IMG/VR virus record: IMGVR_UViG_3300034061_004692
Span: 1-27,172 of that record
Strand: one strand, 5' to 3'
Source of the DNA: a virus
Length of the DNA: 27,172 bases
Position 1 is the stretch's first letter; the number at the start of each line of letters is the position of its first letter. The notes below the pieces were generated by a model, which was given only the letters and a program-made list of their open reading frames with translations, ran no database searches and was not told where the DNA came from. Shown here piece by piece: positions 1-21,411 of this stretch. A program made the translations under genes and the position numbers.

Positions 1-590
1 CTCTGACGGCCGCCCACGTCGCCGCCGACATCGCCTCGTGCACGCTGGCCAGCGGCAACAAGACCGTGCCGGTCCGTCAGGTCTGGGTGCACGGCGAGTG
101 GCAAGACACCAACCTGGGCGTGGCCGATATCGCGATCTTGCGGACCGGCGAGGCGTTCGGGCTGGGCTTCTACCCGCCTCTCTGCGATGGTGGCGAAGAG
201 GTCGGCGAGGTCGTCAGCATCGCGGGCTGGGGCATCACGGGGCGGCTCTCGACGGGCCACACGCACACCGACGGCCGCCTACGGGCGGGCACGAACACGA
301 TCGAGCGATTCGAGCGGGCGGTGATCGTCTGCCTCGCGAAGCCCGGATCGTCGCCCCTCGAATATTGCATCGCTCCAGGCTGCAGCGGCGGGCCGCTGTT
401 TGTGGGCGGGCGACTCGCGGGCATCAACTCGTTCACGTCGCGAGACGCTGGCACGGGCAAACTCCGTAGCGGCACCGGCGAGGAGAGCGGGCACACGCGG
501 GTGAGTCTGTACCGCGAGTGGATCCTGTCGGTCGTGGGCGCGGAACTTGACGCCGCTTCTACCGTGGCGGCATGGAACAAGACGCAATAG
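1..590 (+). CDS. Trypsin-like serine protease, 5' truncated by window edge
   Basis: The open frame enters the window at base 3 with no start codon, so the N terminus is missing. The chymotrypsin-fold triad is visible: LTAAHV with His at 15-17, DIAIL with Asp at 126-128, and GCSGGPLF with the nucleophile Ser at 384-386. Spacing of 37 residues from His to Asp and 86 from Asp to Ser fits family S1. The residue before the catalytic Ser is Cys, where trypsins have Asp194. That Asp pairs with the freed N terminus in activated trypsins, so zymogen-type activation is unlikely here. It lies upstream of replication and glycosylation genes in a phage context. A role in envelope degradation or virion maturation is inference. 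The protease identification is firm; the substrate is unknown. Confidence 0.85.
   Translation, partial: LTAAHVAADIASCTLASGNKTVPVRQVWVHGEWQDTNLGVADIAILRTGEAFGLGFYPPLCDGGEEVGEVVSIAGWGITGRLSTGHTHTDGRLRAGTNTIERFERAVIVCLAKPGSSPLEYCIAPGCSGGPLFVGGRLAGINSFTSRDAGTGKLRSGTGEESGHTRVSLYREWILSVVGAELDAASTVAAWNKTQ
547..571 (+). promoter_or_regulatory. Candidate promoter, TTGAC-N8-TACCGT
   Basis: TTGAC at 547-551 is followed after 8 bases by TACCGT at 560-565, then six bases and the ATG at 572. The same arrangement recurs before genes at 3035/3044, 10578, 11285 and 13551. If TACCGT acts as a -10 box, transcription would begin at or next to the start codon. It overlaps the end of the upstream protease gene. 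Promoter function is inferred from recurrence only. Confidence 0.35.
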
Positions 591-736: not shown

Positions 737-1131
737 ATCCGATCACGTTCAGCGTGCCAGGGCAGCCCGTGCCGCAGCCAAGGCAGCGTACTACACGCAC
801 CGGGCACACCTACTACCCGGACAACGGGATCGTTGAGTATCGGGCAAACATAGCCAAGGCGGCCCTAGAGGCTGGCGCAACGCCTACAACGGAATCCCCG
901 CTAACGATGATTCTGGATTTGGTTTTCGTGCGACCTCCGAGCCACTTTCGGAAGGACGGCACGATTCGTCCAGGGAAACCAAACCTTCCGCGTGGAGACA
1001 ACAAGAACATCCTGAGCGGGGTTGAGGACGCACTGAACGGGATTGCCTACAAGGATGATGGCCAAATCGGAAAGCACATCATCGAACGGTCATGGGGCCA
1101 GGAGGCACGGACCACCGTGCGGATTTTCTGA
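733..1131 (+). CDS. rusA: RusA-family Holliday junction resolvase
   Basis: This 132-residue protein matches the RusA endonuclease family in length and motifs. The N terminus has the family strand pattern (ITFSVPGQPVPQPRQR). The active-site region reads KPNLPRGDNKNILSGVEDAL followed by YKDDGQI at 106-112. RusA dimers cut Holliday junctions symmetrically, and phage copies resolve recombination intermediates before packaging. The canonical P-D-x-D-N motif reads P-R-G-D-N, so the first acidic residue is Arg87 while Asp89 and Asp108/109 remain. The start is GTG 733, overlapping the previous stop by four bases, with purine-rich sequence upstream. The next gene overlaps the TGA by one base. Confidence 0.85.
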   Translation: MNPITFSVPGQPVPQPRQRTTRTGHTYYPDNGIVEYRANIAKAALEAGATPTTESPLTMILDLVFVRPPSHFRKDGTIRPGKPNLPRGDNKNILSGVEDALNGIAYKDDGQIGKHIIERSWGQEARTTVRIF

Positions 1132-1709
1132 TGCCAACGTGGTCAGACGTTTTAGACATTCACGGTTTCTCGTCTGTCGCCAACCGGATGCTGCTCAATC
1201 AAGTGGTCGCCACGGTGCCGCAGGCCCGCATCCTCGAAGTCGGCTCGTACAAGGGCTCGACAGCCGCGGCCATGTGTTTCGGCAATCAAGTCGAGTGCAT
1301 TCACCTCGTGGACAATCACAGCGAGTTTGGCGACACGCGGGCCGCGCTGCGAGGGACGTGCGAGCGTTTCGGGATGCCCGCGACGATTCACGACCTAGAT
1401 TGGCTCGCCCCGCTGCCTCACGACGCATTCGGCGGCACGAGGTTCAACGTGTACCTCTACGACGGTTCGCATGATGAAGAGCACCACTCCCGCGAGCTTG
1501 CGATCGCTTGGCCGCATCTAGCGGACGCGTTCGTCTACATCGTGGACGACTACTCGTGGGAACAGGTGCACCGCGGATGCGATGCCGGTCTGCTTGCGTT
1601 GGGTGACAAGATCAACGTCGTGAGTCGCAACGTGTATCCAAGCGACCGGCTGAACGACGCCGACGGCTACTGGAACGGGTTGCTCGTGGCGTGGTGCGAG
1701 AAGACGTGA
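1131..1709 (+). CDS. Class I SAM-dependent methyltransferase (Methyltransf_24-like)
   Basis: The product has 192 residues. A glycine-rich SAM-binding motif I is clear (ARILEVGSYKGSTAAAM), followed by an acidic strand end (CIHLVDNHSE). The later segments LYDGSHDEEHHSRELAIAW and YIVDDYSWEQV match the D-G-x-H and H/D-D-Y features of the Methyltransf_24/CmcI-like group, which usually methylates sugars or small molecules. There is no DNA-methylase N/D-PP-Y/F motif, so DNA is an unlikely substrate. The start ATG overlaps the previous TGA by one base, and the stop overlaps the next GTG. Its place at the head of three glycosyltransferase-like genes suggests methylation of a glycan made by that set. 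Confidence 0.75.
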   Translation: MPTWSDVLDIHGFSSVANRMLLNQVVATVPQARILEVGSYKGSTAAAMCFGNQVECIHLVDNHSEFGDTRAALRGTCERFGMPATIHDLDWLAPLPHDAFGGTRFNVYLYDGSHDEEHHSRELAIAWPHLADAFVYIVDDYSWEQVHRGCDAGLLALGDKINVVSRNVYPSDRLNDADGYWNGLLVAWCEKT

Positions 1710-2404
1710 ACATCACCATCAGCGGATACAACCGGCCTGACTACCTCGCCCGCACGTGCGAGGCCGTGTCAAAGTGCGTCGGCGTTTCGAGCTGCCGTGT
1801 CGCCGTACTCCTCGACCCGTGCGAGGAGACGGAGCGGTCAAAGGAAATCGCCGCCCGGTTCGGCTTTGAGTGCCTGACCTACACTGAGCACGCGGGATGC
1901 AACGACGCGATCTACACGTGCATGAGGTACGGGTTTGAAGTCATGCAGAGCGAATTTCATCTGCACTTCGAGGACGACACGGTGCCGACCCGTGATGCGT
2001 TGCTGTGGTTCAGTTGGGCTCGCGACAAGTACCGCCACGATCCGCACGTGATGACGGTGAGCGGATACCAGCAGCAGAGTAACGGCAAGCCGGAGCAATG
2101 CGGCACGCGGCGGTGGTTCACACCGTGGGGGTGGGGCACGTGGGTGGATCGCTGGGTCGAGATCGCCCCGCGCTGGACGAGCAAGGAAGGCCCGTCGTGG
2201 GACATCATCTTGAACAACGTCATTCGCGGCACGCGGTGGGAGGCGTTCCCGACCGTGAGCCGGATTCAAAACATCGGGGCCGAGAAGGGCACGCACGTCT
2301 CCGGGCCTGAGTGGCACGCGAAGTACCACCACGTTCCGCAGACCTCCGATGACCTGGGCGGCGAGGTGATCCGCGACTTCGTGGAAGTGGAGCCGCTGCT
2401 GTGA
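1706..2404 (+). CDS. Glycosyltransferase, GT-A fold
   Basis: The protein has 232 residues. It begins with a GT-A-like first strand and nucleotide-binding loop (ITISGYNRPDYLARTCEAV). It has an acidic metal-binding motif in FHLHFEDDTVPTRDALLWF and a distal WFTPWGWGTWVDRW segment typical of bacterial family-2/13-like transferases. It likely moves a sugar from a nucleotide donor to an acceptor in the cytoplasm; donor and acceptor cannot be told. GTG 1706 was chosen over GTG 1691 because it forms the GTGA overlap with the preceding stop that recurs through this genome. No signal peptide or membrane segment is seen. Confidence 0.72.
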   Translation: MNITISGYNRPDYLARTCEAVSKCVGVSSCRVAVLLDPCEETERSKEIAARFGFECLTYTEHAGCNDAIYTCMRYGFEVMQSEFHLHFEDDTVPTRDALLWFSWARDKYRHDPHVMTVSGYQQQSNGKPEQCGTRRWFTPWGWGTWVDRWVEIAPRWTSKEGPSWDIILNNVIRGTRWEAFPTVSRIQNIGAEKGTHVSGPEWHAKYHHVPQTSDDLGGEVIRDFVEVEPLL

Positions 2405-3021
2405 TCCTGCTGGTCGAGCACTACAAGCCGAGCGACCCGGAGCGGATCGCCGAATTGGACGGCACGCTCAAGGCAAACATAGAACTTGGCGTCTTCGAGG
2501 ACATCGTGCCGGTGAGCGCTGGCGAGGACCGACTGCGGTATGGCCACGTGTTCCGCATGTGCGCCAGCAAGTTCGCGGGTCGCGTCTGCGTACTGGCGAA
2601 CGCCGACATCCAGTTCGACTACACGGCGCGGCTCTTGGGGAGCGTTGTCACAGCGAAACGTCTCGTGACGTTGACGCGCTGGGAATCGCCTGCGACGCCC
2701 CGCATGATGGGCCAGTACCGCGACGAGCGTTTCTATTCCGGCTCGCAAGACGTGTGGGCGTTTCTCGGCGGCGAGTTGGTCGGGGTAGGCGACCGGATCC
2801 CACTCGGCTACATCGGCTGCGACAACGCGCTCGCGGGCGAGGCGATGAATGCGGGCTATGTCGTTGTGAACCCCGCTCTCTCGATCCGCACGTGGCACAA
2901 CCACAAAAGCACGGGCCGCAGCGAAACAGAGGCGAGCGTGCCGGGCACGTACGCGTATCCCGAATTGACGACGATGGCGACCACGGGGCGGGTGATGCAC
3001 CACGAGTGGCCGCAGGCTTGA
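2401..3021 (+). CDS. Glycosyltransferase-like protein
   Basis: This 206-residue protein starts at GTG 2401, overlapping the preceding TGA by four bases. It contains VCVLANADIQFD, GSQDVWAFLGG and GYIGCDNALAGEAMNAGYVV, followed by NPALSIRTWHNHKSTGRSE. This order (an N-A-D-I strand, a [S]-QDVW segment, a C-D-N motif and a terminal H-x-H near an Arg) is typical of a group of predicted nucleotide-sugar transferases with a degenerate GT-A core. It is the third gene in a coupled methyltransferase and glycosyltransferase run. Assignment as a glycosyltransferase is moderately supported; the product is unknown. Confidence 0.6.
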   Translation: MILLVEHYKPSDPERIAELDGTLKANIELGVFEDIVPVSAGEDRLRYGHVFRMCASKFAGRVCVLANADIQFDYTARLLGSVVTAKRLVTLTRWESPATPRMMGQYRDERFYSGSQDVWAFLGGELVGVGDRIPLGYIGCDNALAGEAMNAGYVVVNPALSIRTWHNHKSTGRSETEASVPGTYAYPELTTMATTGRVMHHEWPQA

Positions 3022-3043
3022 CGCTGCCGGGACGATGAGCGGC
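3018..3043 (+). promoter_or_regulatory. Candidate promoter, TTGAC-N8-GACGAT
   Basis: TTGAC at 3018-3022, straddling the previous stop, is followed after 8 bases by GACGAT at 3031-3036, then GAGCGGC and ATG 3044. The layout mirrors the motif at 547-571, including the shared GGCATGG. The hexamer is a poor -10 match, so this is the weakest of the five copies. Confidence 0.25.
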
Positions 3044-3952
3044 ATGGCAACCATCACGCTAGACGAGATCGAGCGGCACCACCCCGACGTGCTGCTCCCG
3101 CCCGACCCGGAGTTCGCGGAGGCTTACGCCTATGCGGTGCGCGAGGGCCGCGAGGTCGCAAAGACGCAAAGCGTTGCGATGGTGGCCATCTGCCGCAACG
3201 CGATGCCGTGGCTCCCTCGCACGCTGGAACTTGTCGAGCGGACCGGCGCGATGTTCCGCGAGTGGTCGGCGTTCATCTACGAAAACGACTCGGCCGACGA
3301 GACAAAGGACGCGCTCGCCGCGTGGCAAGACGGGCAGCAGCGGCACGCGTCGCTGAATGTCAACGGCCGCCCGCACCTGAACTACACGACCGCGCCGGTG
3401 CGGACGCACGCGCTGGCGGAATACCGGGCAGCGTGTCAGACGTTCGTGCGGCACGGCGATAGGCCCGACTATGTGATCGTGTTTGATACAGACCCGTGGG
3501 GCGGGTGGAGCGTAGACGGCATCGCCACGTCGGTCTTCCACATGGAGTACGACCGCAGCCTCTACGCTCTGGCGAGCTATTCGTGGGCGGAGGTTCAGCA
3601 ACTAAAGGGCACCGGGCCAATCCACTACGACGCGTTCGCGTGTCGCCTGAATCACTGGCGGCAGCGAGATCAAGATTGGTTCCACCTCTGGCACCCGGCG
3701 ATCGGCTCACCGCCGGTCGAGGTCAATTCGGCCTTCGGCCAGTTGGCGATCTACGACGGGCGGCGGTTTCTGCAGGGTCGCTACAGCGGCGAGGACTGCG
3801 AGCACGTGTGCCTGCATCGCAGCATCAAGGCGCTGGCCGCCGAGAAAGACGACGACCACTACGACGGACCAAGCAACACCCGGATGGCGATCAACCCGTC
3901 GATGCGATGCGTGTCCTTCTGGGTTCCCGACGAGGTGAAGCGTGGCGGGTAA
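3035..3952 (+). CDS. Glycosyltransferase-like protein (305 aa)
   Basis: The core begins with SVAMVAICRNAMPWLPRTLE, a nucleotide-sugar-transferase-like first strand. It is followed by FIYENDSADETKDALAAW, where an E-N-D-S-x-D-x-T motif marks eukaryote-like GT69 and related transferases. A DxD-type motif sits in YVIVFDTDPWGGW. It also holds a Trp/His-rich segment (DQDWFHLWHPAIGSPP) and no membrane anchor. ATG 3035 is used; ATG 3044 gives the same protein less three residues and sits at the expected distance from the promoter-like motif. The last bases overlap the next gene by 11. It completes the methyltransferase/glycosyltransferase run; the acceptor is unknown. Confidence 0.62.
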   Translation: MSGMATITLDEIERHHPDVLLPPDPEFAEAYAYAVREGREVAKTQSVAMVAICRNAMPWLPRTLELVERTGAMFREWSAFIYENDSADETKDALAAWQDGQQRHASLNVNGRPHLNYTTAPVRTHALAEYRAACQTFVRHGDRPDYVIVFDTDPWGGWSVDGIATSVFHMEYDRSLYALASYSWAEVQQLKGTGPIHYDAFACRLNHWRQRDQDWFHLWHPAIGSPPVEVNSAFGQLAIYDGRRFLQGRYSGEDCEHVCLHRSIKALAAEKDDDHYDGPSNTRMAINPSMRCVSFWVPDEVKRGG

Positions 3953-4343
3953 CACTTCCAGAATCGACATTGCGGTGCTCAAGATTCAGTGGGCCAGCCA
4001 CTCGTCTTACGCATCGCTCTGCACGTTCTGGACGGTTACTCGCGACCAACTAGTGCGGCTCCGCGACGTGGTGCCGCTGCCACCTAGGCACGACCGGAGG
4101 CTGCGATTCAAACCGCCGCGTCCGGAGAAGCCGACGCCGGAGGAAATCGCGGCGAGCGAGGCCAGCCTTGACCTCGCCCCGATGGTCGCCGCCAGGGCGA
4201 CGAACGAATCGTCCCTGTGGACGGAAGATGTCCGGGCGCAGCGGCAAGTGAAGAAGCCGACGGCCTTTGAGCTTCGCCCTATCGAAGTTCCGCCGGAGGC
4301 CCGCGACCTGTTCGATGACTTGAACCGGGAGGCGCAGTGGTGA
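3942..4343 (+). CDS. Hypothetical protein (133 aa)
   Basis: The start is GTG 3942, preceded by a good ribosome-binding sequence (GAGGTGAAG) and overlapping the glycosyltransferase stop by 11 bases. The N-terminal half (KIQWASHSSYASLCTFWTVTR) is followed by a proline- and arginine-rich stretch (LPPRHDRRLRFKPPRP) and an acidic C terminus. No domain is recognised, and no signal peptide or membrane segment is seen. Its stop overlaps the next GTG by four bases, so it is part of the same transcript. Confidence 0.65.
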   Translation: MAGNTSRIDIAVLKIQWASHSSYASLCTFWTVTRDQLVRLRDVVPLPPRHDRRLRFKPPRPEKPTPEEIAASEASLDLAPMVAARATNESSLWTEDVRAQRQVKKPTAFELRPIEVPPEARDLFDDLNREAQW

Positions 4344-4593: not shown

Positions 4594-4902
4594 ATGCAAC
4601 ACCCGTCCTATTCCGCGACGCCCGAAGAGTACGCCAAGTACGGCACCAACTTGAATGTGTGGGAGCAGATCCGCCTGCTCTCCCAGTGGGCTCCGCTGCT
4701 CGCCTACGGGCAGGCGTTCGTCCAGGCCGTTGACCCATACCGTAAGTCGCTCGTTGTGGCCGACGCCGCCGAGTGGGTCGCGAGCAAGACGAACGCACAG
4801 GTGGACGACCAGCTTGTGCGGCTGCTGGCCGACATCCTCAAGACTCCGCAAGGCGAAGCCCTCGTGCGGTGGTGCCTGCTGCGAGCCGAGGAGGCAAAGT
4901 GA
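4594..4902 (+). CDS. Hypothetical helical protein (102 aa)
   Basis: ATG 4594 was chosen because a strong purine-rich ribosome site (GGGAGAGGAG) ends about five bases upstream; the in-frame GTG at 4573 lies inside that site. The product is predominantly helical (QVDDQLVRLLADILKTPQGEALVRW) with no membrane segment or Cys motif. A TACCGT hexamer at 4570-4575 could serve as a -10 box, giving a short leader. Its stop overlaps the GTG of the next gene. No family is recognised. Confidence 0.65.
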   Translation: MQHPSYSATPEEYAKYGTNLNVWEQIRLLSQWAPLLAYGQAFVQAVDPYRKSLVVADAAEWVASKTNAQVDDQLVRLLADILKTPQGEALVRWCLLRAEEAK

Positions 4903-5177
4903 ACCTCGATGTTGTTATTCGTGCCGTCGCCGCGGTGGCGGCAGTTGGTCTCCTCACTGGCCCCGCGCTTGCCGCCCTGGTTGCAAAAGCCAAAGCCGGT
5001 TGGAAAGACAACCCGCTGGAAGCCGCAACTGAAAAAGCCGCAGTCGTGACGGCGAGGGATCTGCATATCGTCCTCGACCTCGCGACTCGCTTGAAGGCGG
5101 CGCAGTGCATGGAAGGCGTCTCGCTCTGCCAGCAACTCCTTGACGTGATGCTGGGCAACACGAAGGGCAAGAAATGA
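4899..5177 (+). CDS. Small membrane protein (92 aa)
   Basis: The start is GTG 4899 in a GTGA overlap. An N-terminal hydrophobic stretch (VVIRAVAAVAAVGLLTGPAL) could be a membrane anchor or signal peptide. It is followed by a charged, helical domain with two Cys residues (AAQCMEGVSLCQQLLDVML). It ends in a basic tail and overlaps the next ATG by four bases. Small size, one membrane segment and position ahead of an enzyme and other membrane proteins suggest a lysis or envelope role, but no holin or spanin family is recognised. Confidence 0.6.
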   Translation: MNLDVVIRAVAAVAAVGLLTGPALAALVAKAKAGWKDNPLEAATEKAAVVTARDLHIVLDLATRLKAAQCMEGVSLCQQLLDVMLGNTKGKK

Positions 5178-5653
5178 GCGTCCGTACTCGGATCGTTGTC
5201 GCGATCGTACTCGGCTACGTGGCCGCGTTCGGCGTGCCGTCGTTGCCGAGCCTGCCGCGTGTCGCCGTTTCCGTCACCGACCCGAGTCCTGAGATGAAAG
5301 CCAAGGTTGCCGGGATCGCCGCCGCCCTGCGTTCAGCGTCACCCGTTGATCGTGCCGTGTGGGCCTCGACGTGGGAGAAGGCAGCCATCGTCGTCGCGGG
5401 CGATGCCGTCACGACCGAGGTAGCGTTCACCGACACGCGGGCTCTGCGGCAGTTCACCGTCCTGGCTCTCGACATCGCGTGGCGGCGGCTCGCCGCCAAC
5501 CAGCCCGGCAAGTACGCCGGTCTGCGTGAGGCGACGGAGGCCGTGCTGCTGGAAGTGGTGGGCGAAGAGGTTGTGCCGGTCACGCCCGACATGCGCCGCG
5601 CCTACAGCGATGCCGCCAAGGCAATCGCGTGGGCTGGCGTGAATGGGGGGTAA
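5174..5653 (+). CDS. Membrane-anchored or secreted hypothetical protein (159 aa)
   Basis: ATG 5174 overlaps the previous stop (ATGA). Residues 1-25 (RTRIVVAIVLGYVAAFGVPS) form a basic-then-hydrophobic signal-anchor. The remainder is a soluble alanine-rich helical domain containing WASTWEKAAIVVAGD and TVLALDIAWRRLAANQPG. No catalytic motif is visible. It precedes the papain-like protease by two bases and could work with it at the envelope. The function is unknown. Confidence 0.6.
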   Translation: MSVRTRIVVAIVLGYVAAFGVPSLPSLPRVAVSVTDPSPEMKAKVAGIAAALRSASPVDRAVWASTWEKAAIVVAGDAVTTEVAFTDTRALRQFTVLALDIAWRRLAANQPGKYAGLREATEAVLLEVVGEEVVPVTPDMRRAYSDAAKAIAWAGVNGG

Positions 5654-5655
5654 GC

Positions 5656-6576
5656 ATGGCCGCTCACGCCTTCGGATACGAGCCCGACCCGCACGGTGCC
5701 GCCGCGTTCGTGAAGACGCTTGCGCGGCCCACGCTCGCGCAAGCTGGGCCTGACCTCGCCACCGACGAGAAGACCGACGTGTTTCTGTACGAGGCGTTGC
5801 TCAAGTGTCAGCCGTCATGGCAGCGCGGCTCGCAGGGTTCGGTGGGTTCGTGCGTCGGCTGGGCCGCAGCCCTTTGCGTGGACGTTCTCGCTGCCTCGGA
5901 CATCGTGTACCGCAAAGAGCCGGAGGTGTGGGCGGGCCGCACCATCGAAGGCAGTCTGTATGCGCTGTCGCGGGTCGAGGCTCGCGGGTTGCAGCGTAAC
6001 AACGGAGGGGACGGAAGCACCGGATTCCACGCGGCCAAAGCGATCCGCGATTACGGCTGCCTGCACTACGGCGTTGACTACGGCGGCGTGAAGTTCGACG
6101 CCCACTCGTCGCAGCGTGAGCGTGATTGGGGCCGCAACGGATTGCCCGACACGCTGGAGCCGTTTGCCAAGGAACGCCGCGCGAGCGAAACCACGCTTAC
6201 AACGTCGTTCATGGACGTGGCCCGCGCCGTCTCCAATGGGTATGGCTGCGTGGTCTGTTCGCTCCAAGGCTTTTCGATGAGCCGCGACTCGGAGGGCTTC
6301 TGCAAGCCCGGCGGGACTTGGCCGCACGCGATGTTTATCGGTGGAATCCGCTGGGGCAAGCGACCCGGTGCGTTGATTCTCAATTCGTGGGGCGCGTCGA
6401 ACACAACGGGCAAACACTTCCCCGAGAACATTCCCGAGCCCGTTCGCGTCTGCTCATTCTGGGCCGACGCTGACGTTGTTGACAGGATGGTGAAGGGCGA
6501 GGACTCATACACCTACGCGGGATACTCCGGCTTTCAGCGGACGACGATTGAGAACTGGACCGGAGGCGTCTTGTGA
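5656..6576 (+). CDS. Papain-like (C1) cysteine protease
   Basis: This 306-residue protein carries the full papain active site. The oxyanion Gln60 and nucleophile Cys66 are in QGSVGSCVGWAAA. His224 is in WPHAMFIGGIRWG. Asn243 is in LILNSWGA, the classic N-S-W-G motif. There is no propeptide and no obvious signal sequence. ATG 5656 is preceded by a G-rich ribosome site (GGGGGG); an in-frame GTG at 5629 lies inside the previous gene. Canonical C1 proteases are rare in phages, where papain-fold lysins are usually CHAP or NlpC/P60 amidases lacking N-S-W-G. The neighbouring membrane and lipoprotein genes suggest lysis or entry through a proteinaceous envelope. The fold is firm; the substrate is inferred. 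Confidence 0.85.
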   Translation: MAAHAFGYEPDPHGAAAFVKTLARPTLAQAGPDLATDEKTDVFLYEALLKCQPSWQRGSQGSVGSCVGWAAALCVDVLAASDIVYRKEPEVWAGRTIEGSLYALSRVEARGLQRNNGGDGSTGFHAAKAIRDYGCLHYGVDYGGVKFDAHSSQRERDWGRNGLPDTLEPFAKERRASETTLTTSFMDVARAVSNGYGCVVCSLQGFSMSRDSEGFCKPGGTWPHAMFIGGIRWGKRPGALILNSWGASNTTGKHFPENIPEPVRVCSFWADADVVDRMVKGEDSYTYAGYSGFQRTTIENWTGGVL

Positions 6577-6863
6577 AAACCGCGGCCCTCGTCACCGGCA
6601 CGTTCCTGTTGTTCGCCAACGGCTGCGGCTCGCAGCCAACGGACGATGCCGCGATCACGGCAGACCTCGCGTGCGAGACGGCGAGGATGGCGGTGAAGCT
6701 CTCGCAGGAAATCGCCCCCTCGCCGCCGAAGCCCGTGCCCGCTGGCAAGTGCTTGAACTGTGCCGGAACCGGTGTCATCGGTGATGGAAACTCAATCCGA
6801 ATGCAATGCCCCATCTGCAAAGGCACAGGCAAAGCCTGCACGGACGGGAGGTGCAAGCCGTGA
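6573..6863 (+). CDS. Lipoprotein with two DnaJ-type CxxCxGxG motifs
   Basis: The start is GTG 6573 in a GTGA overlap. Residues 1-18 form a lipoprotein signal (LVTGTFLLFANGC) with Cys18 as the probable acylated residue. A proline-rich stretch (APSPPKPVPAGK) leads to two CxxCxGTG motifs, C60-C63 and C79-C82, plus C89 and C94. These match the zinc-binding repeats of DnaJ. Four such cysteines can hold one zinc ion. The pairing of lipoprotein signal with chaperone zinc motif is unusual. Proline richness and position before two membrane genes make an outer-membrane spanin-like role one option; superinfection exclusion is another. Confidence 0.7.
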   Translation: MKTAALVTGTFLLFANGCGSQPTDDAAITADLACETARMAVKLSQEIAPSPPKPVPAGKCLNCAGTGVIGDGNSIRMQCPICKGTGKACTDGRCKP

Positions 6864-7219
6864 AGCTCGCCGACCTCCAAGACTACGTTTGGCGTCGCGC
6901 GCCGCTGGGCAAGCACATCGTCGGCCGCCGCGTGTTCGCGGACCTCGTGCAACTCACGGTCGAATCGTGGGAGCCGATGAACCTGAACCACGCCACCAGC
7001 GACGACGCCACCGCGGCCGTCTGCGGCAGCATTGAGCGGTCGGTGAAGCGAATGCACCAAGTGATGAGCGGTAAGGAACCGCAAGAGTACGGAATCTTCT
7101 GGGCGTTCATCCTGCAACTGATGGTGTCGGTCATCATCAAGATCATGTTGGAGTGGTGGCAGGAACGTGCAAGCAATCGGGTCTGGCTGGTGACAATGCA
7201 ATCGGAGTTGACGAAATGA
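6860..7219 (+). CDS. Membrane protein, possible holin or lysis accessory (119 aa)
   Basis: GTG 6860 forms a GTGA overlap with the lipoprotein gene. The N-terminal two thirds is soluble. A single hydrophobic segment (GIFWAFILQLMVSVIIKIML) lies near residues 74-93, followed by a short tail with charged residues. No holin family is recognised. The stop overlaps the next ATG by four bases. Context with a lipoprotein, another one-pass membrane protein and a protease supports a role in lysis; this is inference. Confidence 0.6.
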   Translation: MKLADLQDYVWRRAPLGKHIVGRRVFADLVQLTVESWEPMNLNHATSDDATAAVCGSIERSVKRMHQVMSGKEPQEYGIFWAFILQLMVSVIIKIMLEWWQERASNRVWLVTMQSELTK

Positions 7220-7539
7220 CGAGCGAGGAACTCAAGCAAGGCGTGCTGGATTCCCTGTTGCGGATTGCCGAGCGATTCGGCGTGCCGGTGGTGCTCCTCG
7301 CGGTCATCATCTGGCTGGGCCGCGAGGCGGCGATCACGCTGCACGGCTCGCTGGTCGAGCCCGTCGTGAAATCGCATGTGGAGTTTCTTGAGACGACGAG
7401 CGAGACGCTGCGGGAGATTTCTTCCGTGCAGACCCAGCAAGCCGCGACGCTGGAAGAACTGGCACACGGTCAGCGAGAGTTGACGGATCGTGTAAAGACG
7501 GTGACGGCGCGGGCCGTCGAGACGCCCCCGCAAAACTAG
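7216..7539 (+). CDS. Single-pass membrane protein with coiled coil (107 aa)
   Basis: ATG 7216 overlaps the preceding stop. One hydrophobic segment (VPVVLLAVIIWLGREAA) at about residues 23-39 is followed by a long heptad-rich helix (residues about 50-95, including LREISSVQTQQAATLEELAH). Inner-membrane anchor plus periplasmic coiled coil is the layout of i-spanin (Rz-type) proteins and some holin-like proteins. The lipoprotein two genes upstream would be the natural partner. No sequence family is recognised, so the lysis role is inferred from topology and place. Confidence 0.6.
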   Translation: MTSEELKQGVLDSLLRIAERFGVPVVLLAVIIWLGREAAITLHGSLVEPVVKSHVEFLETTSETLREISSVQTQQAATLEELAHGQRELTDRVKTVTARAVETPPQN

Positions 7540-7547
7540 GTGAGCCA

Positions 7548-7865
7548 ATGCCCTCCTACGATCAGACGCCTGGGACGCTCAGTTTGTCGCTCAAGCGAGC
7601 CGACGACTTTAGCGTACTTATCGACTTCAACCCGCTCACGATGACGGGGTACACCGTCACGGCGTCGATGACGAGCCTCGTCAGCGGGGCCGAGGTCCAA
7701 GCGTTCACCGTGACGGCCGCCAACGCTGCGAGCGGGCAGTTCAATATCTCGCTCACCGACACGCAGACCGCCGCCCTGGCCCGTGGCACCTACGGCTGGC
7801 AGATGCGTTGGACGGAGAACAACGCCACCCGTACGGCCCTCACCGGCTTCGTGGAGGTCATCTAG
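7548..7865 (+). CDS. Tail-fibre or baseplate-associated protein, beta-sandwich type
   Basis: This 105-residue protein begins at ATG 7548 with AGGTGAG just upstream. The pattern ADDFSVLIDFNPLTMTGYTV followed by SASGQ-type turns and GTYGWQMRWTENN resembles the small N-terminal beta domain of phage baseplate upper or fibre-connecting proteins. Its stop TAG shares its last base with the GTG start of the large fibre gene. It probably joins the fibre to the tail tip or forms part of it. Family assignment is by pattern, not by a strong motif. Confidence 0.55.
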   Translation: MPSYDQTPGTLSLSLKRADDFSVLIDFNPLTMTGYTVTASMTSLVSGAEVQAFTVTAANAASGQFNISLTDTQTAALARGTYGWQMRWTENNATRTALTGFVEVI

Positions 7866-9451
7866 TGGCGATCAACGCGAACGTCAGCGGCGGGCAGCAG
7901 ATCACGGCGAACGTCGGCGAGACGAAGATCGACGTTGCCGTGTCGGGTGGCGTCGGCCCTACAGGGACCGCAGGCGCGGCCGCATCGGTTCAGGTCGGCA
8001 CCGTGACGACGGGTGCGCCTGGCTCGTCGGCCTCGGTGGTCAACGCTGGCACTTCGAGCGCGGCGGTCCTGAACTTCACGATCCCCGCAGGGGCCACGGG
8101 TGCGCAAGGCCAAGCCGGGGCCACCGGAGCGCAGGGGATTCAAGGAATCCAAGGCCCGGCGGGACCGGCGGGGGCCACGGGTGCCACAGGCCCAGCAGGC
8201 AGCAATGCCACGGCGACGACCGACGCTTCGGCGCTAGTGTCTGGCACATTGGACGCGGCCCGACTCCCCGGCTCGGTTGTCCTCACGACCGACGCGAGGC
8301 TCAGTGACGCTCGCCAGCCGCTCACCCATACCCACACGGCCAGCCAGATCAGCGACTTCACGGCGGCCGTCATCGCCGCAGCCCCGCCGACCACCAATGC
8401 CAGCCTGCTGACCTCTGGCACGCTCCCCGATGCTCGGCTCTCATCGAACATCGCCCGCACCAGCGACATCACGACTGCCGTGGCGAACGTGGTGAACGCG
8501 GCCCCGGCTGCGTTGGACACGTTGAACGAGCTTGCGGCGGCACTCGGTAACGACGCATCGTTTGCCACGACCGTGACGAACAGCCTCGCAGGCAAGGCGA
8601 ACGTCAGCCACACGCACACCGTTTCGGCGATCTCCGACGCCGGGACCGCCGCGACCCGCAACGTGCCTGCCACGGGCAACGCTGGGACGACTGAGGTGGT
8701 GCTGGGCAGCGATACGAGGCTCACAGACCAGCGGGTTCCGACTGACGGCAGCGTGACGACGGAGAAGTTAGGCTCTCTGACACACGTTTCCGCTGGAAAC
8801 ATGGCGGCTGGCAGCGGCGGCATTAGCACCATCGGAACGATCCGGCAAAACGCTTTTACTGGGACTGCGCAGTTCAGTGTTTCCACATCCGGCGTTGTCA
8901 CCGTTGGCACATGGCAGGCAACGGCGATTGCCGTCGCCTTCGGTGGCACGGGCGCGACGGACGCCGCAGGGGCGCGGACGAATCTGGGGCTTGTAATCGG
9001 CACCGATGTACCTGCCCTCTCTCATACGCATAGCGCAGCGGACCTGACGAGCGGCACCGTCGCTACGGCCCGGCTCGGCACCGGCACGGCGAACAGCACA
9101 ACCTTCCTACGCGGCGACCAGACTTGGCAGCTCATTAGCACGACTCCCACCGTCGCCTCGCCTTCGCAGATTACCGCGAACCAGAACGACTACGCGGGCG
9201 CGACTGCGGACATCAACCGGCTCTCGTCGGACGCAGCGCGCGACATCACCGGGCTTTCCGCTAGAACCAGCGGTCAGACCGTCGTGCTGGTAAACGTCGG
9301 CAGTGCGACGATCACGCTCAAGCACCAAAACACAGGCAGCAGCGCCGCCAACCGGATCATCGTGCCGTGGGCGGGCGATTACATTCTCGCGGCTGACGGA
9401 GCCGCCGTCCTTGTCTATGACGCCACGGCCAGCCGCTGGAGGGTCATATGA
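7865..9451 (+). CDS. Collagen-like tail fibre protein
   Basis: The product has 528 residues from GTG 7865. The N-terminal region carries the common fibre motif VGTVTTGAPGSSASVVNAGT. Residues 76-114 form about 13 uninterrupted Gly-X-Y triplets. The rest contains repeated SGT(L/V)xxARL units at about residues 126, 184 and 396, each linked to a D-A-R-L or T-R-L motif. It also has three H-T-H segments (THTHTASQI, SHTHTVSAI, SHTHSAADL) like the metal-binding HxH sites of trimeric fibres. Together these mark an elongated homotrimeric receptor-binding fibre. The next gene overlaps by four bases and may be its tip or partner. Confidence 0.9.
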   Translation: MAINANVSGGQQITANVGETKIDVAVSGGVGPTGTAGAAASVQVGTVTTGAPGSSASVVNAGTSSAAVLNFTIPAGATGAQGQAGATGAQGIQGIQGPAGPAGATGATGPAGSNATATTDASALVSGTLDAARLPGSVVLTTDARLSDARQPLTHTHTASQISDFTAAVIAAAPPTTNASLLTSGTLPDARLSSNIARTSDITTAVANVVNAAPAALDTLNELAAALGNDASFATTVTNSLAGKANVSHTHTVSAISDAGTAATRNVPATGNAGTTEVVLGSDTRLTDQRVPTDGSVTTEKLGSLTHVSAGNMAAGSGGISTIGTIRQNAFTGTAQFSVSTSGVVTVGTWQATAIAVAFGGTGATDAAGARTNLGLVIGTDVPALSHTHSAADLTSGTVATARLGTGTANSTTFLRGDQTWQLISTTPTVASPSQITANQNDYAGATADINRLSSDAARDITGLSARTSGQTVVLVNVGSATITLKHQNTGSSAANRIIVPWAGDYILAADGAAVLVYDATASRWRVI

Positions 9452-15343: not shown

Positions 15344-16910
15344 GGCCGTCAAGGGCTTCACGTACAACGACGAACAGCCGAAGCTCGTGCAGCAGTTCCT
15401 TGAAGCGGTCTGCTGCCACACGAAGGATTCGCCAACCGCACGTGCGGGCGATCCGATGCGTCTGCTCAAGTGGCACATCGAAGACGTGATTGAGCCGCTC
15501 TATGGGTGGCAGGGTGCCGACAACAAGCGTCGCTATCGCTTGGCGTATATCGAGGTGCCGAAAAAGAACGCGAAGAGCACGCTGCTCTCCTGCCTTTCCG
15601 TCTGGCACCTTCTGATGGAGGGCCAGGGCGAGTTGGGTTGCATCGCCGCAAAGGACCGCAACCAAGCGGCGATCATCTTTGACGAAACGGCCGCGATGGT
15701 GAAGCGGTCGCCTGAACTGAAGTCGGTGCTTGAAGTCATCGACAGCCGCAAGACGATCTACTGCGCCGCCACCGACTCCAATCTGCGGGTGATCTCCCGA
15801 GACGCCGGTGCCGCCGAAGGCCCGTCGTACTCGTTTGTGTTTTGCGACGAGCTGCACGCGTGGCCCGACAGGCGTCTATTCGAGGCGCTTCGGTATTCCG
15901 GTCGATCCAGACCCGAGCCGCTGCTCTGCACGATCACCACGGCCGGAGACCGCCGCGACACGATTTGCTGGGAACAGCACGAGTACGCGGAACAGGTGAT
16001 CGCCGACGCGAACTACGACCCCCGGTTCTACGGCAAGATTTTTGCGGCGAAGGCCGACGGGACCGACGACTACTTTGACCCAGCCGTGTGGCGGCGCTGC
16101 AATCCCGGCATGGGTATCACCATGACCGAGGAGTCATTCGCCGCGGATGCCCAGGAGGCCAGGAACAAGAGTACGAAACTCAACGGGTGGCTGCGTTACT
16201 CGCTTGGCGTCTGGGTCGAGAGTTCGCAGCGGTGGATTGACCCGGAGAAGTGGGCGGCGTGTTCGGGCGAGCCGGTCGAGCCGCTGGCCGGGCGGAAGTG
16301 CATCATCGGCATGGACTTGTCGAAGAGCACCGACTTGTCGGCGTGCGTGGCGTTGTTCCCCAACGAAGACGGCACGTTTGACATTGACCCGATGTTTTGG
16401 GCTCCCCGCGATTTGATCATGGAGCGGGAGCGGACGGATCGGCAGCCGTTCCAGCACTGGGTCAATCAAGGCTGGATCAAGGCGACGGACGGCAACGTCA
16501 TCGACCACGCCTCGATCCGCGAATACGTCCTCGAATACTCAAAGAAGCACCAAGTGCAAAAGGTTCTGATGGACATCAGCGGAGCCGTCCAGTTGTCGGT
16601 GGAACTGCAAGGGGCCGGGCTGGACGTGGAATCATACGGACAAGGGTTTCGGCACATGAGCAGTCCCACGAAGCTGCTTGAGTCGCTGACGCTCCAACAG
16701 AGGATCCGCCACGGCGGCAACCCGGTGCTCTCGTGGATGGCCGGTTGCGTCACGGTGGAGACAAACGCGTTCGAGGACGTTCGCCCCGTGAAGAAAAAGA
16801 GCACCGGCCGCATCGACGGCGTCGTGGCCTTGATATTCGCTCTGGGCTATTGGGAAGCAAACAGCATCACGAACGCGGCCGGTAACGGCCCAGAAATCTT
16901 CTTCATATGA
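15288..16910 (+). CDS. terL: Terminase large subunit, HK97-type
   Basis: The 540-residue protein has both motor and nuclease domains. Walker A is the variant VPKKNAKST at 90-98, typical of Terminase_1. Walker B FVFCDE lies at 183-188 with catalytic Glu188. CTITTAG at 214-220 is the coupling motif. The RNase-H-like nuclease carries Asp343 in IIGMDLSKSTD, Asp429 in VLMDISG and Asp510 in GRIDGVVAL. It pumps DNA into the prohead and cuts concatemers. Length is normal for the family and no truncation is seen. The start ATG lies inside terS, and the stop overlaps the portal start by four bases. Confidence 0.95.
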   Translation: MPSKKASSLRSLPEKRRREAVKGFTYNDEQPKLVQQFLEAVCCHTKDSPTARAGDPMRLLKWHIEDVIEPLYGWQGADNKRRYRLAYIEVPKKNAKSTLLSCLSVWHLLMEGQGELGCIAAKDRNQAAIIFDETAAMVKRSPELKSVLEVIDSRKTIYCAATDSNLRVISRDAGAAEGPSYSFVFCDELHAWPDRRLFEALRYSGRSRPEPLLCTITTAGDRRDTICWEQHEYAEQVIADANYDPRFYGKIFAAKADGTDDYFDPAVWRRCNPGMGITMTEESFAADAQEARNKSTKLNGWLRYSLGVWVESSQRWIDPEKWAACSGEPVEPLAGRKCIIGMDLSKSTDLSACVALFPNEDGTFDIDPMFWAPRDLIMERERTDRQPFQHWVNQGWIKATDGNVIDHASIREYVLEYSKKHQVQKVLMDISGAVQLSVELQGAGLDVESYGQGFRHMSSPTKLLESLTLQQRIRHGGNPVLSWMAGCVTVETNAFEDVRPVKKKSTGRIDGVVALIFALGYWEANSITNAAGNGPEIFFI

Positions 16911-18760
16911 TCGCCAAGAACAAAGAACACCGCATCCTCTGGCTCCCCGGCGAGGCCCGCATGTGGGATGAGGACGGCGACTCGCGGAGTTCGTCGGGCG
17001 TCCGCATCGACTCGAACAACGCCCACCAAGTCGCGGCGGTGTTCGCGTGCCTGCGGGTGATCGCGGAGACGGTGGCCAGCCTGCCGCTGCACGTCTTGGA
17101 GCGGACGCCTGGGGGCGGCAAGCGGGTCGCCCGCGAGTTGCCGCTCTACCGCCAACTGCACAGCCAGCCGAACGGGTGGCAGACATCTTTCGAGTGGCGT
17201 GAGCAGGCCGTCTTTCACATCGGCCTCTGGGGCAACGCGTTTTCGGAATTGAAAGCCGGGCAGATCGTGCCGCTGCATCCCAGCCGGATGAAGGTCGAGC
17301 GGATCGAAAACGGCAAGATTCGCTACAAGTTTCGCGAAGACAAGGGCACGGAGACGGTCTACTCGAACGAGCAGATCCTCCAGATTCGCGGCCCCTCCGA
17401 CGACGGCATCAACGGGATGTCGATCGTGGAGGAGTGCAAGGACGCGATCGCACTAGCCCGGGCTTGCGAGTTGCACGGGGCTCGATTTTTCGCAGCCGGT
17501 GCCCGCCCCGGGTTTGTACTCTCGACTGACGGCAACTTAAACGCGGAGGCCCGCGAGGCGCTGCGGTCGCAGTGGGACCGGCGTCACGGCGGCGTGGGGA
17601 ATTCCCACAACACGGCCGTACTCACGGGCGGGCTCAAGCCATACGAAATTCCGCAGTCGAGCAATTCTGATGCGCAGTTTTTGGAACTGCGGCGTTACCA
17701 GTTGGACGAGATCGCCCGGCTCTTCCGGGTGCCCGGTCATCTACTCGGGTCTGGTGCGGGCAGTGCGCAGGCCGACATTGAGTTCGTGCAGCACACGATC
17801 CTGCCGTGGCTGCGGCGGTTCGAGTCGGCGTTCATGCGCGACCTCATCGAGGACGACGACCGCTATCTGATCGAGTTCGACGTGCGCGGGCTCCTCCGCG
17901 GCGACTCTTCGAGCCGGTCGGCCTACTACCGGGCCATGTGGGACATCGGCGTCTTGAACACCGACGACATCCGCGAACTGGAGAACATGGACCCGGTTGA
18001 AGGCGGCGACGTGCGTTATCGCCCGCTGAACATGGGCACGCTGGGCGAGAAGCCGACCGAAGGCGACGTGCTGGCCCAGCAGCAACCGGGCAGCGGCATC
18101 GACGGGCAGGCGGTCGAGGGCGGGCTGGCCGCTGCGGCTGGCGAGCCGGTGGTGCCCGCGACGCCGGGCGAGTCGGCGGAAACAAGCCTGACGACGGCGG
18201 AGGTCTCGTCGCTCCTGACCGTGGTCAAGCAAATCACCGACGGGCTCCTGTCGGTGGACGCCGCCAGGGCGATCATCGCTGCAGCGTTCCCTGTGCTGTC
18301 TGCGGCCCGTGTCGAGACGATCCTGCAAGGGGTCGCGGTGAAGCAAGAGGAGCCCGCACAGGCTCCCGTGCCGCCTGCAGCAGCGGCCCCTGCGGCCCGC
18401 TCGCAGCCGGTGGAGTCGCGGGCCATGACGATCAGCATCGACTTCGACCGCACGTTTGCGGCCGACCCGACGATGTGGGGAGAGTTCGCCCGCAAGGCGG
18501 TGTCCGAAGGCAACACGGTCGTGATGATCTCGCGACGCCCAGAGGAGGACCGCCAGACCGTGACGGACGCGCTGGGCGACTACGCGGAGGCGTTCTCTCA
18601 GGTATTGCTGGTGGGTGGCGACACGCTCAAGGCCGACGCGGCCCAGGCGGCTGGCATCGACGTTGACGTGTGGGTGGATGACTCGCCGCAGACGATCACG
18701 CCCGCGAAGCCGTGCGACGAGTGCGAGGACAAGCCGAGGTCGCGGAGCCGCCGTAAGTGA
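16907..18760 (+). CDS. HK97-type portal protein with C-terminal HAD-like domain
   Basis: Residues 1 to about 400 are an HK97-type portal, the dodecameric channel at the head vertex. Supporting segments are VAAVFACLRVIAETVASLPL, FEWREQAVFHIGLWGNAFSE and DEIARLFRVPGHLLGS. Residues about 400-505 are an Ala/Pro-rich linker. Residues 507-600 look like a HAD-superfamily phosphatase: motif I ISIDFDRTF (Asp512, Asp514), motif II MISRR (Ser542), Lys575, and motif IV WVDDSPQT (Asp591, Asp592). The 617-residue length is well above a typical portal of about 400. Met507 (ATG 18425) has GGAG about nine bases upstream and might also start a separate HAD protein. A portal-HAD fusion is unusual. Confidence 0.88.
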   Translation: MIAKNKEHRILWLPGEARMWDEDGDSRSSSGVRIDSNNAHQVAAVFACLRVIAETVASLPLHVLERTPGGGKRVARELPLYRQLHSQPNGWQTSFEWREQAVFHIGLWGNAFSELKAGQIVPLHPSRMKVERIENGKIRYKFREDKGTETVYSNEQILQIRGPSDDGINGMSIVEECKDAIALARACELHGARFFAAGARPGFVLSTDGNLNAEAREALRSQWDRRHGGVGNSHNTAVLTGGLKPYEIPQSSNSDAQFLELRRYQLDEIARLFRVPGHLLGSGAGSAQADIEFVQHTILPWLRRFESAFMRDLIEDDDRYLIEFDVRGLLRGDSSSRSAYYRAMWDIGVLNTDDIRELENMDPVEGGDVRYRPLNMGTLGEKPTEGDVLAQQQPGSGIDGQAVEGGLAAAAGEPVVPATPGESAETSLTTAEVSSLLTVVKQITDGLLSVDAARAIIAAAFPVLSAARVETILQGVAVKQEEPAQAPVPPAAAAPAARSQPVESRAMTISIDFDRTFAADPTMWGEFARKAVSEGNTVVMISRRPEEDRQTVTDALGDYAEAFSQVLLVGGDTLKADAAQAAGIDVDVWVDDSPQTITPAKPCDECEDKPRSRSRRK

Positions 18761-19797
18761 TCGCCGTCTTTCGCCCAACGCGACAGGGAGACGCCGACGC
18801 CGTGCTGCGGTGCGTCCGCATTCTGCGGGCCGTGCAGGCGGTGATTGAGCGGCGCGGTTTTTGCCCCACCGGCGAAGGCGGCGGGATCGACAACTCCTGC
18901 GGGACGAATAAGGGCGGGGGCGGTGGTGGCGAATCTTCTGCGGGCAGCGATTCCGGCGAGCCATCGCAGAGAGACCTTGAGCGGGTATTCCGTGGAGCCT
19001 CAAAGGAGGCTCTTAGTTTGGCTACAGGCAGCGATCCAGAACAGGTTCGCGAAAGAGCTGAGATCAAGAAGGAAGTCGCAAAACTGCTTCTGCAAAAGCT
19101 CGACAAGGTCGGGATGGAAGAGAGTAGCGTGCCGGACACGCTACTGGCGGCCACTGGATTCAATCACGAGCGATACAGGGAGGGCGCCTCCCCGGGGTAC
19201 GAGAAAAGGCACGCGCTAGTCAGGGGTATTGTTGACACCTGGGCGAGCACGTCAGGAGACAGCGAGCCAGTTGCAGTTGGGGTTCAAAAGGCTATCGCAA
19301 AAGAACTCGCCTACGAATTCCCTGAACTGGCCAAGGCTGACGTTGGGCACCTAGGCAAGTACGACGCGTCCCCTTTGCTCGGTCCCGCAGAAGTCTCGCG
19401 AATGAAAGGCGTTGAGGAAATCGTCGCGAACAGCAGCGCCGTCAGGGAAGTTATCCGCGCCAAATACAACGCAACGCAGGACTACTTTGAGCAGCAGGGT
19501 ATCAAAGAACTAACGCTGCACCGGGGATTTATAAGTCAGCAAGGCGCTGTCAAATCGTCCGATAGCGAAGATATTTCGCTGCAGCCCGCTTCGAGTTTTT
19601 CGATGAACCGAAAGACTGCAGAGATGTTCGCCGACGACATGAGTTCCGACATCGGCGGTCTTGTTACCGTGAAGGTTCCCGTTTCGCGCGTGCTGTGCAC
19701 GGCAAGCACTGGCATGGGGTGTGTCACCGAGCAGGAGATTGTCGTCCTCGGCGGCGTCATCAAAGGCAAGGTCGTCGCCGGGGGGAAACGGAAATGA
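18757..19797 (+). CDS. ADP-ribosyltransferase (R-S-E type), head-module encoded
   Basis: The 346-residue protein starts at GTG 18757, overlapping the portal stop. Residues 230-327 carry the R-S-E class signature in order: an upstream helix KYNATQDYFEQQGIKELTLH, Arg256 in LHRGF, the Ser motif PASSFSMNRKTAEMF (279-282), and the E-x-E pair Glu325/Glu327 in VTEQEIVVLGG. These enzymes move ADP-ribose from NAD to a protein, usually an Arg side chain for E-x-E. The N terminus (1-60) is a basic helix plus FCPTGEGGGIDNSC and a Gly run, also present in the next gene. GC falls from 40/60 at 18841-18900 to 30/60 at 19261-19320. Position suggests a virion-internal, injected effector; no immunity gene is evident. 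Confidence 0.78.
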   Translation: MIAVFRPTRQGDADAVLRCVRILRAVQAVIERRGFCPTGEGGGIDNSCGTNKGGGGGGESSAGSDSGEPSQRDLERVFRGASKEALSLATGSDPEQVRERAEIKKEVAKLLLQKLDKVGMEESSVPDTLLAATGFNHERYREGASPGYEKRHALVRGIVDTWASTSGDSEPVAVGVQKAIAKELAYEFPELAKADVGHLGKYDASPLLGPAEVSRMKGVEEIVANSSAVREVIRAKYNATQDYFEQQGIKELTLHRGFISQQGAVKSSDSEDISLQPASSFSMNRKTAEMFADDMSSDIGGLVTVKVPVSRVLCTASTGMGCVTEQEIVVLGGVIKGKVVAGGKRK

Positions 19798-21119
19798 TCG
19801 CACTGGATGCTGTCCTATCTAACGCCGATTGGACGAAAAGAACTCCCGACACGCTTGACCAGTTGAGCAAGTCAGGGCCGACATCCCGCGCTTGGTGCAA
19901 AGGCGCTTCGCCTCCGGACAACTCATGCCCTCCATCAAATAAGGGCAAGGGCGGAAAGGGCTCTGGCGGCGGTGGGGCTAAGGGAAAGAGCAAGGGCGAC
20001 AAAGGCGGCAAGGGCTCGAAGGGCCGTAAGTCATCAAAGGGTTTTGATCCCGACAAGTCTTCCGCCGCGATCGTGAAGAAACTCGCCTCCGTAGACGCGA
20101 AGGTCTCGAAGAAGATCGATGCGGCTACGAAGAAAGAGGAAAAGGCGAAGGTTGCTACCGCCAAGGCATTCGACAAAATACGTTCGTTTGATACGGCGTG
20201 GGTTGCCGCTAGAGATGCGCTTGATAAAGATCCAGGCAACGCATCAAAGAAGCGAGCACTTGATCGGATAAACAAGCAGATGCAGGCTGCGGCAGATGCG
20301 CACGCAAAGAACAAAGATGCGTATCAGACCGCAAGGCAGCAGCGAGAACTTGCCGTACAAGACCGAGCCAAGGCAGGCCGCGAAGTGCTGCAACAAGAAA
20401 TCTCTCGGGAGATTCTGGAGATCGCAGGCACAGACGGCCTCGCGACCATCTACGAATCATCCAAGGCGACGATCCAGAAGACTCACGCCGACAGGCTCAA
20501 GAAGGTCAGAGACCCAGAAGCCAGGGCTAGAGTGGCAGACGCCTACGCTTTCATGCTTGAGCACACCAATCCGGCTATCCATGCTGGGGCGTTGCAGCCA
20601 AAGCTCTCGATGCGAGGCAACGTGCGGGCCTACGCAAGACGCGGCGGCTTTGACAGAGAGACGTTTGAGCCTACCGGAGTTCCCGAGGTCGTCGTATCCT
20701 CTCGCGAATCGCCAGGCGTGATCGCCCACGAGATCGGGCACTGCGTTGAGTACAACCCGGAGGCCACCCGGTTGGCTCAAGAGTTCAGGACGCGACGCAC
20801 GGCTGGATCGCAGGAGGTCTCATTCCGCAGCAAGCTTGGCCGCGGCTACAAGAGCGACGAGCGCGGTGCACCGGACGATTTCAAGAAGGCGCACCTTGCG
20901 GCCGGGTATGACGACAAGGAAGCAGAGCACCGGGCTCACTACACCGGAAAGCGATACGTAAGCGGCAGCACCGAAGTGATTTCGATGGGCGTGGAGTTGC
21001 TCAAGAAAGATCCGGCCGCGTTTGCGAAATCCGACCCTGAATGGTTTGCCTTCACTACTGGCATAATGACGGGACGGCTACTGAACGAGTCCAGGCAAAA
21101 GAAAAAGGCAAGAGCGTGA
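19794..21119 (+). CDS. Zinc metalloprotease (HExxH) with Gly/Lys-rich N terminus
   Basis: The protein has 441 residues from ATG 19794, which overlaps the preceding stop. GVIAHEIGHCVEY at 308-320 contains the zincin motif H312-E313-x-x-H316, and Glu394 in GSTEVISMGVELL is the likely third zinc ligand. Residues 90-245 are a long coiled-coil-like helix region. The N terminus holds WCKGASPPDNSC followed by PPSNKG and a Gly/Lys-rich linker (about 46-84), echoing the preceding gene. A minor head protein that is packaged and ejected is the favoured idea; a head-maturation protease is less likely because a standard prohead protease follows. The fold is well supported; target and delivery are inferred. 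Confidence 0.8.
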   Translation: MIALDAVLSNADWTKRTPDTLDQLSKSGPTSRAWCKGASPPDNSCPPSNKGKGGKGSGGGGAKGKSKGDKGGKGSKGRKSSKGFDPDKSSAAIVKKLASVDAKVSKKIDAATKKEEKAKVATAKAFDKIRSFDTAWVAARDALDKDPGNASKKRALDRINKQMQAAADAHAKNKDAYQTARQQRELAVQDRAKAGREVLQQEISREILEIAGTDGLATIYESSKATIQKTHADRLKKVRDPEARARVADAYAFMLEHTNPAIHAGALQPKLSMRGNVRAYARRGGFDRETFEPTGVPEVVVSSRESPGVIAHEIGHCVEYNPEATRLAQEFRTRRTAGSQEVSFRSKLGRGYKSDERGAPDDFKKAHLAAGYDDKEAEHRAHYTGKRYVSGSTEVISMGVELLKKDPAAFAKSDPEWFAFTTGIMTGRLLNESRQKKKARA

Positions 21120-21382: not shown

Positions 21383-21411
21383 TGGCAAGCGGCAACAACA
21401 GGAGCGAGAGA

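Follow-up and report, generated by a model that had tools for sequence, protein, structure and literature searches.

Introduction

Papain-type proteases are already known, as are phage lysis cassettes and lysin domains of the papain family, each separately. In the lambda-type lysis cassette, a holin, an endolysin and the Rz/Rz1 spanins are encoded in a compact operon. A literature search for phage lysis enzymes of papain type resembling the one described here yielded only one example, namely the papain-family N5 domain that lies inside peptidoglycan-cutting mycobacteriophage endolysins (PMC3314691). Walls of SDS-resistant protein had earlier been described for planctomycetes (PMC3422733), and a protein S-layer is present in an anammox member of the group (PMC5088730). 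The view that these bacteria have a wall of protein only was considered and rejected, since planctomycetes possess lysozyme-sensitive peptidoglycan (PMC4432640). One cultured planctomycete phage was reported to exit without lysis (PMC10945688), and the literature searched held no description of the route by which phages exit Planctomycetota.

The locus presented here was found in a phage from fresh water (IMG/VR virus record IMGVR_UViG_3300034061_004692), of which a stretch of 27,172 bases, hereafter the window, was analysed. It carries a stand-alone C1-type protease within a conserved lysis-like module that includes an anchored partner and, recurrently, a thioredoxin, and that occurs in the phages of one phylum as far as tested. 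This combination was not found in the literature searched.

The Phage and Its Probable Host

The window belongs to a phage of the siphophage type, with genes for TerS, TerL, an HK97-type portal, an S78 prohead protease, the capsid and head-tail proteins, from 14.8 kb rightward in the window. Integrase and LexA-type genes were found in its close relatives, which indicates that the window phage is probably temperate. The portal protein (16907-18760) has a C-terminal HAD-phosphatase-like stretch (ISIDFDRTF...) that is missing from the 510-aa portal of a relative (G002), and the head-region protein encoded at 19695-21119 carries a zincin motif (HEIGH).

When GTDB genomes were scanned with the portal, a Planctomycetota MAG proved to have a portal that is 73% identical; the contig carrying it is 3.3 kb long and may have been binned wrongly. 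On a second contig of that MAG, homologues of the window genes at 3035-3952 and 3942-4343, 66-69% identical, stand beside a protease of the family. A search with the protease-family HMM gave strong matches in 14 of 392 Planctomycetota genomes and in none of 388 Verrucomicrobiota genomes. Several of the 14 are chromosome-scale assemblies; two further genomes, whose matches were too weak to count, are not among them. Taken together with the portal in the MAG, these counts make Planctomycetota the likely hosts, and the window phage itself probably infects a member of this phylum. One complete 7.4-Mb Planctomycetota chromosome (G363) has five lambda-type portal genes, several with near-equal scores, and multiple related prophages.

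The Seven-Gene Operon

The preliminary description, made from the sequence alone, had placed a lysis-like module at 5656-7539. These bounds were too narrow, as the coupled operon begins at 4594 and comprises seven genes, of which the protease gene is the fourth (Table 1). The genes are joined by 4-nt ATGA or GTGA stop/start overlaps; the one exception is the protease, whose start lies 2 nt past the stop of its partner. The lipoprotein, the one-pass membrane protein and the membrane coiled coil that had been noted after the protease all exist, and better starts were found for the latter two at 6860 (GTG) and 7216 (ATG), both of which yield 4-nt overlaps. Membrane segments in the operon proteins were assigned by hydropathy. 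The Pfam search of the window gave no match to a holin family, the candidates being the membrane proteins 4899-5177 and 6860-7219. Neither was a spanin family matched; the layout of the lipoprotein together with the coiled-coil protein fits a spanin pair. The lipoprotein occupies the place that is held in other lineages by a ribbon plus thioredoxin-fold protein.

Table 1. Positions of the features discussed in the text, in the window unless a locus is named.
Feature	Position	Strand	Basis or remarks
Trypsin-like serine protease, cut by the window edge, outside the operon	3..590	+	Pfam PF00089, E 6.7e-10
Methyltransferase and glycosyltransferase-like genes	1092-3952		Upstream of the operon, kept in relatives
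First operon gene, 102-aa soluble helical protein	4594..4902	+	86-100% identical homologues, same place in relatives
92-aa small protein, N-terminal membrane segment	4899..5177	+	GTG start overlaps preceding stop; conserved in relatives
Partner gene, 159 aa, N-terminal membrane anchor and ~110-aa helical domain	5174..5653	+	Adjoins protease upstream; 4-nt overlap with preceding gene
C1 papain-type cysteine peptidase, 306 aa, without signal peptide	5656..6576	+	Alignment, AlphaFold2, Foldseek/VIA-align, profile against PDB
Catalytic residues Q60, C66, H224, N243	5833-5835, 5851-5853, 6325-6327, 6382-6384	+	N243 within N-S-W-G
Putative lipoprotein, lipobox FANGC, CxxCxG...CxxCxG cysteine pairs	6573..6863	+	Sequence; ribbon pattern downstream of protease in relatives
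119-aa tail-anchored protein, one C-terminal membrane segment, holin candidate	6860..7219	+	Hydropathy; similar genes downstream in relatives
107-aa protein, membrane segment then coiled coil (i-spanin-like layout)	7216..7539	+	Sequence
Fibre genes	7548-9451		Directly after the module in the window clade
S78 prohead protease	21382-22071		Separate enzyme from the C1 protease
Trypsin and thioredoxin fusions	L325:7958-9406, L327:7260-8756		Planctomycetota prophages without C1 protease

The trypsin-like protease that had been seen at the left edge was recovered by Pfam. Its full-length relatives carry a signal peptide, and it is a second secreted protease, encoded outside the operon. The protein has GCSGGP in the window and in two other genomes (G001, G004), and the usual GDSGGP in a third (G003).

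The C1 Protease

The complete C1 signature that had been read in the protease stands, with all four residues as placed. They are kept in the 16 aligned close sequences, and Q60, C66 and H224 are kept in every one of the homologues from Planctomycetota chromosomes, which are 23-40% identical. The open reading frame has a GC3 of 0.79 and no internal stops. Among 255 loci with relatives, the Cys motif was found in 253, the His motif in 252 and NSWG in 243; three motif exceptions are reading frames cut by contig ends. The variants of NSWG are QSWG (7 loci), DSHG (2) and NSHG (1), so that Asn is replaced by Gln or Asp in nine distant loci.

The single protease sequence had no match when searched with HMMER against Pfam, PF00112 included. 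A family profile built from 55 diverse members, searched against the PDB, found xylellain (E 3e-4), silicateins, papain and cathepsin H. The AlphaFold2 model made from the 55-sequence alignment reached a pLDDT of 93.4 and a pTM of 0.92; this alignment was needed, as the 16 close relatives by themselves gave a pLDDT of 38. Foldseek placed xylellain first (E 1e-9), with cathepsins and papain next, and VIA-align superimposed the model on xylellain (3ois) with a Z of 23.1 and an rmsd of 3.0 over 237 residues. By its sequence and its modelled structure, the protein is a papain fold with a C1A active site, for which proteolytic activity is predicted.

The main rival to a role in lysis or egress by proteolysis is peptidoglycan as the substrate. 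As N5 domains of the papain family form part of mycobacteriophage endolysins, the window enzyme may cut peptidoglycan peptides instead; it would then be a papain-fold endolysin acting on stem or cross-link peptides, that is, an ordinary endolysin of an unrecognised family. The presence of peptidoglycan in planctomycetes is in keeping with this, as are the structural matches of the model, which include two Lysin A proteins as well as phage proteins that bear the names N-acetylmuramidase and peptidoglycan-binding-like. However, the other structural matches listed are cysteine peptidases of papain/cathepsin type; the closest folds are those of protein-cutting C1A enzymes, and the motifs are of the N-S-W-G kind and not those of NlpC/P60 or CHAP. 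No known peptidoglycan hydrolase domain of Pfam was found in the protease, and neither a wall-binding domain nor a CHAP-type fold was recognised in the family search or among the fold matches listed, although absence from the latter carries no weight. The thioredoxin partners described below also better suit a protein substrate. We regard an endolysin of this kind as unlikely.

Spread and Conservation of the Module

IMG/VR scans with different starting sequences confirmed 189, 182, 395, 56 and 4 contigs, in overlapping sets. By tblastn, none was found with three protease sequences among the INPHARED phages, and none with the window protease among the PLSDB plasmids; a scan of genome contigs with the protease found none. 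The preliminary description had raised the question of whether phages of related hosts share the protease, and the 255 loci with relatives, which include unrelated Planctomycetota prophages, show that they do. A partner homologue (E<1e-3) is present in 235 of these loci, and in 227 it immediately precedes the protease gene, while none was found in ten protease-negative prophage regions. The lineages differ downstream of the protease, where many keep a cysteine-pair lipoprotein or membrane protein, tail-anchored proteins and membrane coiled coils.

The phages that carry the module are unrelated. Some have an HK97-type portal and capsid, others a gpA-type terminase with a lambda-type portal, and others an SU10-type capsid with Terminase_6. 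Since it recurs in this way, the module is separable from the structural genes, and its being the element common to the carriers argues against a role in the tail or head. Several prophages have it just before the terminase gene (G350, G132, G344) or before terminase-like and portal genes (G205, G388). The site just before the terminase and portal genes is the place of the lysis genes in lambda.

In the window, the module stands among glycosyltransferase and tail-fibre genes, so that an envelope-modifying or a virion role is possible. As a virion or assembly enzyme, the protease would process the fibres or serve in envelope penetration at entry, and the fibre genes do follow the module directly in the window clade. 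Across clades, however, the position of the module relative to the tail genes varies, its members bear membrane anchors and lipoboxes, and the prohead protease is the separate S78 enzyme. Such a role is very improbable in our view.

That the module serves instead to alter the envelope or surface of a living host, through receptor removal, superinfection exclusion or lysogenic conversion, is favoured by the methyltransferase and glycosyltransferase-like neighbours. The integrase and LexA-type genes of the relatives, which make lysogeny likely, point the same way, and so do stand-alone chromosomal copies of the module. The latter, in the chromosomes G372 and G163 (L160, L161), consist of just the protease, the lipoprotein and the thioredoxin, lack phage genes in the surrounding 10 kb on either side, and are a remnant or domesticated copy; they are counted against a role in lysis. 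Against envelope modification stand the position before terminase and portal genes in several prophages, the occurrence of the module on contigs of >100 kb, and the resemblance of the tail-anchored and coiled-coil partners to lysis proteins. On balance, modification of a living host is distinctly unlikely.

Thioredoxin Partners

A thioredoxin-fold reading frame was found in 20 of the 255 loci, several of them near-identical. In all 20 it directly follows the protease, and it occurs nowhere else in the loci; 8 of 11 chromosomal loci have it. When four of these proteins were compared with Pfam, two scored over the cut-off for thioredoxin families, one matched weakly and one had no match. Two protease-negative planctomycete prophages (G035, G302) encode a secreted fusion of a trypsin-like protease with a thioredoxin (Trypsin_2, E 1.8e-11 and 1.4e-16; Thioredoxin_2, E 3.8e-7 and 6e-10, respectively), and the G035 fusion gene lies close to a membrane coiled-coil gene. 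The pairing of two unrelated proteases with thioredoxin in the phages of one phylum suggests a shared task, which may be the opening of a disulfide-stabilised protein structure.

At L325, the next genes after the fusion encode a protein of 210 aa, which may have permuted papain-like motifs but matches no family, and a membrane coiled-coil protein. Elsewhere in planctomycete prophages, secreted thioredoxin-like proteins with a weak match are encoded between head genes (L331:19163-19942, L333:9530-10321).

Search for Peptidoglycan Hydrolases

The preliminary description had recognised no lysozyme, amidase, transglycosylase or CHAP motif, and the search of the window with all Pfam families likewise gave no muralytic domain. 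The same holds outside the window. No muralytic enzyme was found with all Pfam families in a 50.6-kb relative (G005), whose record looks complete since its ends fall between the prohead protease and capsid genes. Five diverse prophages searched with all of Pfam had no muralytic family, for two of them among the matches listed. In 44 long virus records, PF00959 (lysozyme), PF01464 (SLT), PF01520 (Amidase_3) and PF05257 (CHAP) had no match, nor did PF01510 (Amidase_2) in ten; control genomes gave matches in each muralytic-family search.

Protease-negative planctomycete prophages were considered as possible carriers of a canonical endolysin, and by Pfam none was found within 14 kb of the portal at ten portal loci. 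This weakens the argument that the protease has displaced an endolysin. As these prophages also have no muralytic domain, the absence is not specific to carriers of the protease and is weak evidence; hydrolases of an unrecognised kind may be present.

A Proposed Lysis Cassette

We lean, by a little, towards the operon 4594-7539 being the lysis (egress) cassette of a Planctomycetota phage, in which the C1 peptidase takes the usual place of the muralytic endolysin. The lipoprotein, tail-anchored and membrane coiled-coil neighbours, the terminase-adjacent site and the recurrence in unrelated phages all favour it, as do the conserved active site, the partner kept beside the protease, the recurrent thioredoxin and the lack of recognisable muralytic enzymes; the cultured phage reported to exit without lysis speaks against it. 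We infer every functional step and the substrate as follows. The membrane proteins (6860-7219 or 4899-5177) would permeabilise the inner membrane. The protease, which is cytoplasmic in the window clade and membrane-anchored in others, would then reach the periplasm, with the anchored partner encoded upstream holding or restraining it. There it would cut peptide bonds of the envelope, either in wall or surface protein or in the stem peptides of peptidoglycan. The cysteine-pair lipoprotein, which carries a thioredoxin domain in other lineages, might open disulfides or keep the catalytic cysteine reduced. Finally, the lipoprotein and the membrane coiled coil could work in a spanin-like manner at the outer membrane.

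The preliminary description had suggested that proteolysis of a protein-rich envelope could replace or supplement peptidoglycan cleavage. A lysis-like operon with a C1 protease and with no recognisable muralytic enzyme agrees with this, and the thioredoxin partners fit it too; however, the lysozyme-sensitive peptidoglycan of planctomycetes means that protein breakdown alone may be insufficient. A broader idea, which we hold to be doubtful, is that Planctomycetota phages lyse by reductive proteolysis. A thioredoxin-type reductase and a protease, of the papain type here and of the trypsin type in other prophages, would together dismantle a disulfide-containing protein layer, without any peptidoglycan hydrolase of the phage.

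A protease in the endolysin position, if lytic, would represent a different route by which bacteria are lysed. In metagenomes, the module could also serve to recognise Planctomycetota phages as a marker at the family level, and it would bear on how much of the load the disputed protein layer of planctomycetes carries relative to their peptidoglycan.

Comparison with Known Systems

The window protease shares its fold, the Q-C-H-N active site and N-S-W-G with xylellain and the C1A papain/cathepsin peptidases (MEROPS family C1), although it is only about 9-18% identical to the solved C1A structures and, as a single sequence, matches no Pfam family. Unlike these peptidases, it is encoded by a phage, has a fixed membrane-anchored partner gene, and has no classical propeptide that could be recognised. 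With the CHAP and NlpC/P60 endolysins it has the papain-like superfamily in common, whereas the motifs and the family differ.

In mycobacteriophage Lysin A with N5, a papain-family peptidase serves phage lysis, as is proposed here. However, N5 is one domain of a protein that also has a wall-binding domain and a glycosidase or amidase, whereas the window protease stands alone. Like the present operon, the lambda-type cassette is compact. In both there is a single soluble enzyme, accompanied by small membrane proteins, by a lipoprotein and by a membrane coiled coil, and, as in lambda, the module adjoins the terminase genes in several prophages. The module differs from lambda in that the enzyme is a C1-type protease and not a recognised peptidoglycan hydrolase, that anchored proteins are encoded upstream of it, and that some lineages add a redox partner.
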